A stretch of DNA of 51,343 nt from Bacteroidota bacterium (lineage in GTDB: Bacteria > Bacteroidota > Bacteroidia > 2-12-FULL-35-15). The notes beneath the pieces are model-generated. The model saw only the letters and a list, made by a program, of their open reading frames with translations, did not search any database and was not told where the DNA came from. The translations under genes were made by a program, and so were the position numbers. Positions 1 through 47,723 of this stretch are shown here, piece after piece; the first letter of the stretch is position 1; each line of letters starts with the position of its first letter. The DNA lies in the NCBI GenBank assembly GCA_025363555.1, contig JANYDQ010000151.1:1-51343 (forward strand). Direction: 5' to 3'.

Positions 1-138
1 TACTAAACGACTAATAAATGACTTATGGGCTAAAGCCCTTATCTGGTGAGGTTTCATTAACCCCAGCCTTAAGGCTGGGGTTACAAAACAGAACTACTTG
101 TATTTAGGGACTTTAGTCCCATTAGTCGGTTTGTAGTG
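1..138. mobile_element. MITE-like element, copy 1 (left tip outside window)
   Basis: This stretch matches 36644-36781 at 137 of 138 positions; the only difference is G at 48 against C at 36691. Three perfect hairpins lie inside: GGGCTAAAGCCC (27-38), a 26-bp palindrome centred on AGCCTTAAGGCT (58-83) and GGGACTTTAGTCCC (107-120). The right end reads ATTAGTCGGTTTGTAGTG. By comparison with the complete copy, the first three bases (CAC) and the left target duplication lie before the window. No ORF is present, so any movement would need a transposase encoded elsewhere. Confidence 0.85.
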
Positions 139-21596: not shown

Positions 21597-21848
21597 GGTA
21601 ATTTTCCACCGAATTGTGAAAGGTTTGGACCGGAAACAGAAAGGGTGGAGCCAAAAACACAAAGGTTTGGACCAAACAGTGATGTTTTCCGCCCGGAAAA
21701 ACAAAGGTTGCAGCCAAAAACAAATAGGTTTGGACCAAACATATATGTTTTCCATCCGAAAACAGAAAGGTTTGGACCAAAAACAGAAAGGTTTAGACCA
21801 AACAGTGATGTTTCCGAACGGAAAAACAGGAAAATTTGAACGGAGCCC
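21597..21848. repeat. 21-bp tandem array A (12 units)
   Basis: The exact 21-bp period runs over 12 units without gaps. The consensus GAAAGGTTTGGACCAAAAACA is seen best at 21618, 21660, 21765 and 21786. Each unit has a dyad at the same place, but its sequence alternates: TTTGG-A-CCAAA in some units, TTTTCCG-CC-CGGAAAA at 21681, TTTCCG-AA-CGGAAA at 21807 and GGTTGCAGCC at 21702. The units carry no unique spacers, so this is not a CRISPR array. On the minus strand one frame encodes FGPNLSV-type heptads. Confidence 0.85.
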
Positions 21849-21910: not shown

Positions 21911-22120
21911 AAACATGTGTTGGAGTAAAAATAAGATATGTTGGAGTAAAACAAACATGTGTGGAAGTAAAACAAACATGTGTGGAAGTAAAACAAACAT
22001 GTGTGGAAGTAAAAGAAACATGTGTGGAAGTAAAAGAAACATGTGTGGAAGTAAAAGAAACATGTGTGGAAGTAAAACAAACATGTGTGGAAGTAAAAGA
22101 AACATGTGTTTATTTTGAAA
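21911..22120. repeat. 21-bp tandem array B (about 10 units)
   Basis: Nearly identical units AAACATGTGTGGAAGTAAAA(C/G) repeat every 21 bp from 21911, with slightly diverged first two and last units. It begins 62 bp after array A. Each unit contains the palindrome ACATGT. Because 21 is divisible by three, several frames stay open (TCVEVKQ heptads on plus, FLLLPHM on minus). I treat these ORFs as by-products. The preceding GTTTCTT-TTC-AAGAAAC forms a hairpin at the left edge. Confidence 0.85.
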
Positions 22121-36243: not shown

Positions 36244-36516
36244 AAAATGTTTTGAAGCCAAAGATTGAATGTTTCACAGCAAAGGTTGGAACTTTCACAC
36301 CAAAGGTGGAGTCTTTCACGTCAAAGGTTGAATGTTTGACGTGAAAGGTTGAGTCTTTCACGCCAAAGGTTGAATGTTTGACACCAAAGGTTGGAGCTTT
36401 CACTCCAAAGGTGGAGTCTTTGACGTGAAAGGTTGAACCTTTGAAGCGAAAGGCTGAACCTTTGAAGCCAAAGGTTGAACCTTTGAAGCGAAAGACTGAA
36501 CCTTTAGCTTCAAAAG
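36244..36516. repeat. 21-bp tandem array C (13 units)
   Basis: The exact 21-bp period runs over 13 units. Typical units are TTGAATGTTTGACGTGAAAGG and TTGAACCTTTGAAGCGAAAGG. Nearly every unit fits AAAG-N7-CTTT-N6 (with some GTTT for CTTT), so inverted AAAG/CTTT tetramers alternate every 10-11 bp. Units such as AAAGGTTGAACCTTT are perfect dyads. It shares the AAAGGTT head with array A. One minus-strand frame encodes FGVKHST/FGVKDST heptads, which I regard as a by-product of the period. Confidence 0.85.
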
Positions 36517-36640
36517 TATTTATGAGGAAATCAACGGAATTTTTGCTTAAAATCAGCGTGTTAGCTTTTCATTATTTTCAAGTTTTGCCGGTTTTGGTGG
36601 GTAAAGCCTGTAAAATTATGCCTTAATTGTTAAATACTAT

Positions 36641-36781
36641 CACTACTAAACGACTAATAAATGACTTATGGGCTAAAGCCCTTATCTGGTCAGGTTTCAT
36701 TAACCCCAGCCTTAAGGCTGGGGTTACAAAACAGAACTACTTGTATTTAGGGACTTTAGTCCCATTAGTCGGTTTGTAGTG
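36641..36781. mobile_element. Complete 141-bp MITE-like element with 9-bp target duplication
   Basis: Terminal inverted repeats CACTACTAAACGACTAAT (left) and, as reverse complement of the right end, CACTACAAACCGACTAAT match at 16 of 18 positions. The element is flanked on both sides by the identical 9-mer AAATACTAT (36632-36640 and 36782-36790), the mark of a transposition event. The interior holds three hairpins as in copy 1 and no ORF. It lies between the array C region and a glycosyltransferase gene. Confidence 0.95.
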
Positions 36782-36836
36782 AAATACTATACATTTTTTG
36801 ATGAGATTTTTCCCTTCCGTGGTAACCAAAAGTTCT

Positions 36837-36862
36837 GTCATTCTGAACGAAGTGAAGAATCT
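36837..36862. repeat. Short dispersed repeat, GTCATTCTGAACGAAGTGAAG type
   Basis: GTCATTCTGAACGAAGTGAA and its continuation match, at 17 of 23 positions, the reverse complement of the 23922-23944 sequence. I recall both as scattered widely in Bacteroidota genomes. It lies 55 bp after the MITE. The remainder of 36791-36970 has no gene; a weak hairpin near 36962 may end the glycosyltransferase transcript. Confidence 0.55.
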
Positions 36863-47559: not shown

Positions 47560-47723
47560 ACACTTCTCCCTTGGAGAGGGAAGTAACCCATAATTCAACT
47601 TAAAATTACCACGCATCCTATTATTTTTTCTATCTCGATAATTATAAGGTATTTAGTACCCTCAATTAATTAAGCAATAAAACAATTTATCAATTATAAA
47701 AAACAATCCATCAATTATAAAAT

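Follow-up and report, generated by a model that had tools for sequence, protein, structure and literature searches.

The 141-bp MITE identified in the 51,343-bp contig analysed here (the window) is very probably an IS4 MITE moved in trans, whose passenger would be a REP/BIME-like unit of hairpins belonging to a Y1 single-strand transposase. This reading builds on features seen directly in the sequences, namely ends shared with an IS4-family element, 9-bp target duplications, ends of the partner element in the same genome, and an association of the hairpins with Y1 genes. The preliminary description of the window missed the nature of the interior, which is a conserved REP-like cassette tied to Y1 (HUH) transposases and not random filler.

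Structure, copies and target duplications of the MITE

The window is contig 303 of the genome G000 (400 contigs, 4.32 Mb), a bin with an estimated contamination of 3.3%; the members of the genus tied to named records are metagenome assemblies. The structure first described for the element was recovered on re-examination (Table 1): a length of 141 bp with AAATACTAT on both flanks, the same 16 of 18 pairing positions in the 18-bp inverted ends, and all three interior hairpins. No ORF of at least 90 aa overlaps it in the window. The near-identical second copy, also reported earlier, showed a single mismatch in 138 positions (G/C, position 48) and lacks the first three bases because the contig begins there. 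H1 and H3 are reverse complements of each other in type, so that the whole MITE can be folded as one long hairpin, and its fold was more stable than those of all 200 shuffled sequences (RNA z = -6.5; DNA z = -6.7; 0/200 as stable).

Table 1. Positions of the MITE copies and their components in the window.
Feature	Position	Strand	Remarks
Complete MITE copy	36641..36781	+	141 bp; ends 16/18, perfect 9-bp target-site duplication, about 18-29 near-identical genomic insertions
Left target-site duplication AAATACTAT	36632..36640		
Right target-site duplication AAATACTAT	36782..36790		
Left terminal inverted repeat CACTACTAAACGACTAAT	36641..36658	+	17/18 match to left end CACTACTAACCGACTAAT of IS4 element L110
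Right terminal inverted repeat	36764..36781	-	reads CACTACAAACCGACTAAT on the - strand
Hairpin H1 GGGCTAAAGCCC	36670..36681	+	conserved in Bacteroidota and Planctomycetota; also flanks Y1 transposase genes
Hairpin H2 TAACCCCAGCCTTAAGGCTGGGGTTA	36701..36726	+	perfect palindrome
Hairpin H3 GGGACTTTAGTCCC	36750..36763	+	
Second MITE copy	1..138	+	element positions 4-141; right flank ATAAAATAT at 139-147

Searching the MITE against its own genome returned more than 20 near-identical matches, many of them stopping at contig ends, which is the usual sign of repeat collapse in assembly; the number of distinct insertions is estimated at about 18-29. All four uninterrupted full-length copies possessed perfect AT-rich 9-bp duplications (AAATACTAT, ATATATAAT, AAATATTAA and ATTTTAAAT) at unrelated sites. 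Contigs carrying left and right ends had three further exact 9-mers in common (TTACTTTTT, TAAAACAAT and ATAAAATAT), compared with a mean of 0.46 when the right-flank columns were shuffled (P(≥3) = 0.002), while one internally deleted internal copy (L025) showed no clear duplication. The copies of this genome are nearly all 97-99% identical, indicating recent amplification there, as the preliminary description had proposed. The congeneric genomes G026 and G027 contained diverged copies (~72-85% identical) with 9-bp duplications either intact or decayed.

The search of whole and related genomes with extraction of flanks, suggested earlier as a check, thus found 9-bp duplications and differing flanks. 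Copies without duplications, or with flanks in common, had been named as the mark of a conserved locus; the copies recovered have perfect duplications and lie in unrelated flanks. A conserved chromosomal locus or structured RNA resembling a MITE, which the strong structure and the covariation described below would favour, is therefore hardly credible: it is already refuted by the 9-bp duplications of some 18-29 insertions at unrelated sites, and Rfam holds no family for the element, the scores for MIR856 and K10 being far under their gathering cut-offs.

Some smaller units were also observed. Positions 1501-1537 of L031 (G000:C24) form a 37-bp unit of two facing ends (CACTACTAACCGACTAATTTTTTGTCGGTTAGTAGTG) with no 9-bp duplication, and the 9-bp duplication around a 59-bp mini-element in G027 (L121) contains one mismatch. 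One MITE copy (L007, G000:C118:1-500) adjoins a broken Y1 transposase gene with GCTCCTACGGAGC hairpins. Elsewhere in the window, tandem arrays with a period of 21 bp (or 63 = 3 x 21) are located at 21618-21828, 21911-22109, 36251-36505 and 47679-47722, the third of which stops ~130 bp before the MITE, and a Flavo-1 RNA (RF01705; 51093-51184, - strand, 62.6 bits) is the sole Rfam match.

An IS4-family partner element

A DDE enzyme with CACTAC-type ends and 9-bp duplications had been predicted to exist elsewhere, and an IS4-family IS corresponding to it was found, intact in the congeneric genome G029 and as ends in G000 itself. The intact element, obtained through a terminal-repeat search of the genus (L110; G029:C165), is 1415 bp long, has the ends CACTACTAACCGACTAAT ... 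TTAGTCGGTTTATAGTG, and contains a single ORF of 406 aa with profile matches to NF033592 (IS4; 211.5 bits, cut-off 115) and to the Pfam families DDE_Tnp_1 and DUF4372. Residues 305-319 (YKKRWGIELLFKKMK) form the YREK motif, the defining feature of IS4-family members (PMC2266710). It begins 1 bp from the contig end, and the duplication there is unreadable. Beyond the 18-bp ends, the only part common to both, no subterminal identity was detected between the MITE and the IS.

In G000, 13 contig ends carry a common IS4 right end of ~138 bp (CACTATTAACCGACTAAA...), the opposite strand of which encodes the C-terminus of the transposase (...NLRSWGNSAKQATPDLFST, followed by the stop). A left end was located at the end of contig C166, with an ORF 64% identical to the transposase N-terminus; this left end and the right end on C109 are both flanked by the 9-mer AAAATTTAT, the sole such match in the genome. 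Based on the 13 right ends, the left end and the shared AAAATTTAT, an autonomous IS4 is present in this genome, probably in many copies that collapsed in the assembly, where it is represented by ends, one decayed copy (C288) and one fragment (C127), none of them intact. Seven related IS4 insertions elsewhere in the class (L290, L294, L296, L298, L297, L127 and L130) also possessed perfect AT-rich 9-bp duplications.

Transposition of the MITE by the IS4 transposase is strongly supported by these sequence comparisons. The IS4-family DDE transposase would recognise ends of the CACTACTAA(A/C)CGACTAAT type, duplicate 9 bp of AT-rich target on insertion, and mobilise the non-autonomous MITE; that the IS4 protein acts in trans is inferred.

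Other candidate partners were discarded. For IS1, which also makes 9-bp duplications, a search of the genome with PF03400 found nothing, and the IS5 element at C127/C400 has different ends of its own (GAGAGTTTTGCAA). A set of ends initially treated as a separate MITE family ('Family C') proved to belong to the autonomous IS4, as its right ends. In L047 and L055 (G000:C147 and C287), an IS4 right end is joined inside an IS5-family transposase gene at an identical point, representing either an assembly chimera or a real composite.

The same CACTAC-type ends enclose a second, unrelated passenger in this genome (GATTCCTCACTTCGTTCGGAATGAC), with the duplication ATTCTATTT in L061; it was not found beside the own-genome Y1 genes inspected. 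Sequence of this type also lies between CACTAC ends in L032, L036 and L058-L062, and the stretch 36837-36862 of the window (GTCATTCTGAACGAAGTGAAGAATCT), 46 bp from the right duplication of the MITE, resembles it.

The hairpin cassette and its link to Y1 transposases

The interior cassette consists of H1 (GGGCTAAAGCCC), H2 (AACCCCAGCCTTAAGGCTGGGGTT) and H3 (GGGCTTTAGCCC or GGGACTTTAGTCCC), with mostly 88-92 bp (about 89 bp) from H1 to H3. Across Bacteroidota and Planctomycetota, no fewer than four kinds of terminal inverted repeat were found to enclose it. Within one genus, at least three end types surround it: CACTACTAACCGACTAAT (G000, G026, G027), TGGTTCGGTACTTTTTTAGC (G029, G002, G027) and ACCTATCCCTAAGATTATTTTAAT (G013, G011). 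Scanning named genomes for the exact pattern returned at least 101 stretches, a figure showing breadth rather than degree of conservation, as exact H1 and H2 were selected and the conservation is partly due to this selection. Among the matches listed were Bacteroidales, Chitinophagales, Prolixibacteraceae and Cyclobacteriaceae within the Bacteroidota, as well as Planctomycetota (Ca. Brocadiaceae and others) and one MAG each from Patescibacteria and Nitrospinota. IS4-type ends (CATTGGTGTCCGAT, CATTGTTGTCCGGG and similar) surround the cassette in other Bacteroidota, in elements mostly 138-144 bp long with perfect 9-bp duplications; when their flanks were mispaired, 9-bp duplications appeared in none. 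In Planctomycetota, the elements have yet another type of end (GGGATTGACAATAAATAA), measure ~200-300 bp, and show duplications that by eye look like 3 bp.

Hairpins of the genus, which were found by BLAST and not via the exact pattern, paired better than column shuffles (H1, 157 compared to at most 155; H2, 410 compared to 397; H3, 172 compared to 164), and the genus alignment of H2 contained clear two-sided (compensatory) changes. Arrays with repeated H2 are present in L166, L167 and L169. The long array of L167 (G030:C121) alternates palindromes (AACCYYAGCC... and CTCCGTCCTTTAGGGCGGAG) at a regular spacing of ~41 bp.

On contig C265 of G000 (L169), a Y1 gene lies exactly between two arrays of the same hairpins. 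The gene (L169:290-721, - strand) encodes 143 aa, its stop codon falling inside GGGCTAAAGCCC, and the protein matches PF01797, the IS200/IS605 transposase profile NF033573 (67.5 bits, cut-off 55) and the IS608 TnpA in the PDB (E = 3.8e-7). It carries YINNQEEHH, an instance of the Y---Q--HH signature of TnpA_Y1 subclass 1.2 (PMC6006769), and this signature is present in every homolog listed. The terminal secondary structures typical of IS200 are described as generally absent from subclass 1.2 (PMC6006769), whereas 29 of the 32 Y---Q--HH homologs found across the class were flanked by GC-rich hairpins within 330 bp. Because of that description, the association between these hairpins and subclass 1.2 appears to be new within the open-access literature searched. 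Hairpin density at the 32 homologs was 3.82/kb near the gene compared to 0.46/kb far from it. Of the GGGCTNNAGCCC occurrences, 35 were near and 6 far; 22 further Y1 loci from the genus had none. The H1-H2 centre-to-centre spacing is 37-43 bp at Y1 genes and in MITEs alike. Moreover, Y---Q--HH Y1 genes directly adjoin exact cores in L218 and L244, another shares a contig with an exact core (L269), and a Brocadiaceae contig bearing a core (L183) encodes a Y1 C-terminal fragment with 68% identity. In G026 and G029, core MITEs are present and no close Y1 homolog was found, indicating that a Y1 gene is not required for the MITE to spread.

Another Y1 gene of G000 (L365; C109:7500-9200), with the signature MNQKEHH and one internal TGA, follows arrays built from other hairpins (CGACTCCGAAGGAGTCG and GATACCTTCGGCATC), suggesting that hairpin families are specific to individual Y1 genes.

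The element could instead be a plain IS4-derived MITE in which the hairpins are generic filler limiting read-through transcription or stabilising RNA, their likeness to the Y1 hairpins being convergence. Hairpins are indeed common in MITEs, shuffled sequences fold far less well than the whole element, and a close Y1 gene is missing from some genomes with cores, but the sequence, order, orientation and ~89-bp length of the cassette recur between unrelated ends in two phyla, and GGGCTNNAGCCC is specific to the flanks of Y---Q--HH Y1 genes; this explanation is considered improbable.

In the favoured explanation, an IS4 end pair would have captured an H1-H2-H3 unit of the type bracketing subclass 1.2 Y1 genes, and double-strand transposition by IS4 would now spread the captured unit. 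From the shared hairpins, the Y1 protein is predicted to recognise the MITE interior and could still bind or nick it. Other DDE transposons with other ends may have captured the same kind of cassette. As a wider and more tentative proposal, given somewhat less than an even chance, the cassette would be the REP-like substrate of a little-characterised Y1 clade (subclass 1.2), acquired on repeated occasions by DDE transposons of unrelated kinds (the IS4 type with its 9-bp duplications, the Planctomycetota element with different ends and ~3-bp duplications, and transposons with two other types of ends). The resulting miniature elements would be doubly mobile, using both single- and double-strand transposition, and would have passed from one phylum to another.

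The origin step may also have run the other way, with a Y1 enzyme placing the hairpin unit into the IS4 frame. In its general form, this alternative holds that the cassette itself is mobile and that Y1 inserted it either into IS4, type II, III and IV elements already in place or between a pair of IS ends. IS200/IS605-type and REP systems do mobilise single strands bounded by hairpins (PMC2817692, PMC6006769), the cassette occurs in several frames, and repeated-H2 arrays exist. Yet no cassette insertion was seen against an empty-frame counterpart, and the CACTAC-ended copies of the own genome are complete composites bearing 9-bp duplications, which leaves a mobile cassette a serious but unlikely option.

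Comparison with known systems and significance

The partner element resembles the IS4 family in its length (1415 bp), CA ends, YREK motif, DDE_Tnp_1 domain and duplications of ~9 bp; duplications in the family are ~8-13 bp (PMC2266710, Table 1), with 8-10 bp for IS4Sa and 9 bp for IS10 (PMC2266710). It differs in its N-terminal DUF4372 domain, and the MITE retains no more of it than the 18-bp ends. Like other bacterial MITEs (Correia/NEMIS, RUP, ERIC, Nezha; PMC3733652, PMC2817692), which are 70-300 bp long, the element has inverted ends, duplications and hairpins and no gene. However, most of those studied derive from IS630, whereas the partner here is an IS4, and the interior is a cassette common to other transposon frames.

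As in REPs, BIMEs and RAYTs (PMC2817692, PMC6006769), the hairpins bracket a Y1 gene, occur elsewhere in the genome, and show compensatory substitutions and regular spacing. In contrast to these systems, the hairpins are found here between DDE transposon ends, the Y1 genes belong to subclass 1.2, and no GTAG or CGTC tag was seen by inspection at the foot of H1 or H2. In REP-targeting IS elements (cited in PMC2817692), a DDE element is likewise joined to REP-type palindromes; there the IS inserts into the REP, while here the REP-like unit lies inside the element and travels along. No prior description of the cassette or of DUF4372 elements was found in the open-access literature searched.

Overall, a MITE family is paired with its IS4 transposase in one genome, and subclass 1.2 Y1 transposases, described as without typical terminal structures, gain a candidate hairpin substrate. 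One hairpin cassette is common to miniature elements moved by different transposases, and it can now be tested whether hairpins internal to MITEs serve a second transposase and thereby aid spread between phyla.
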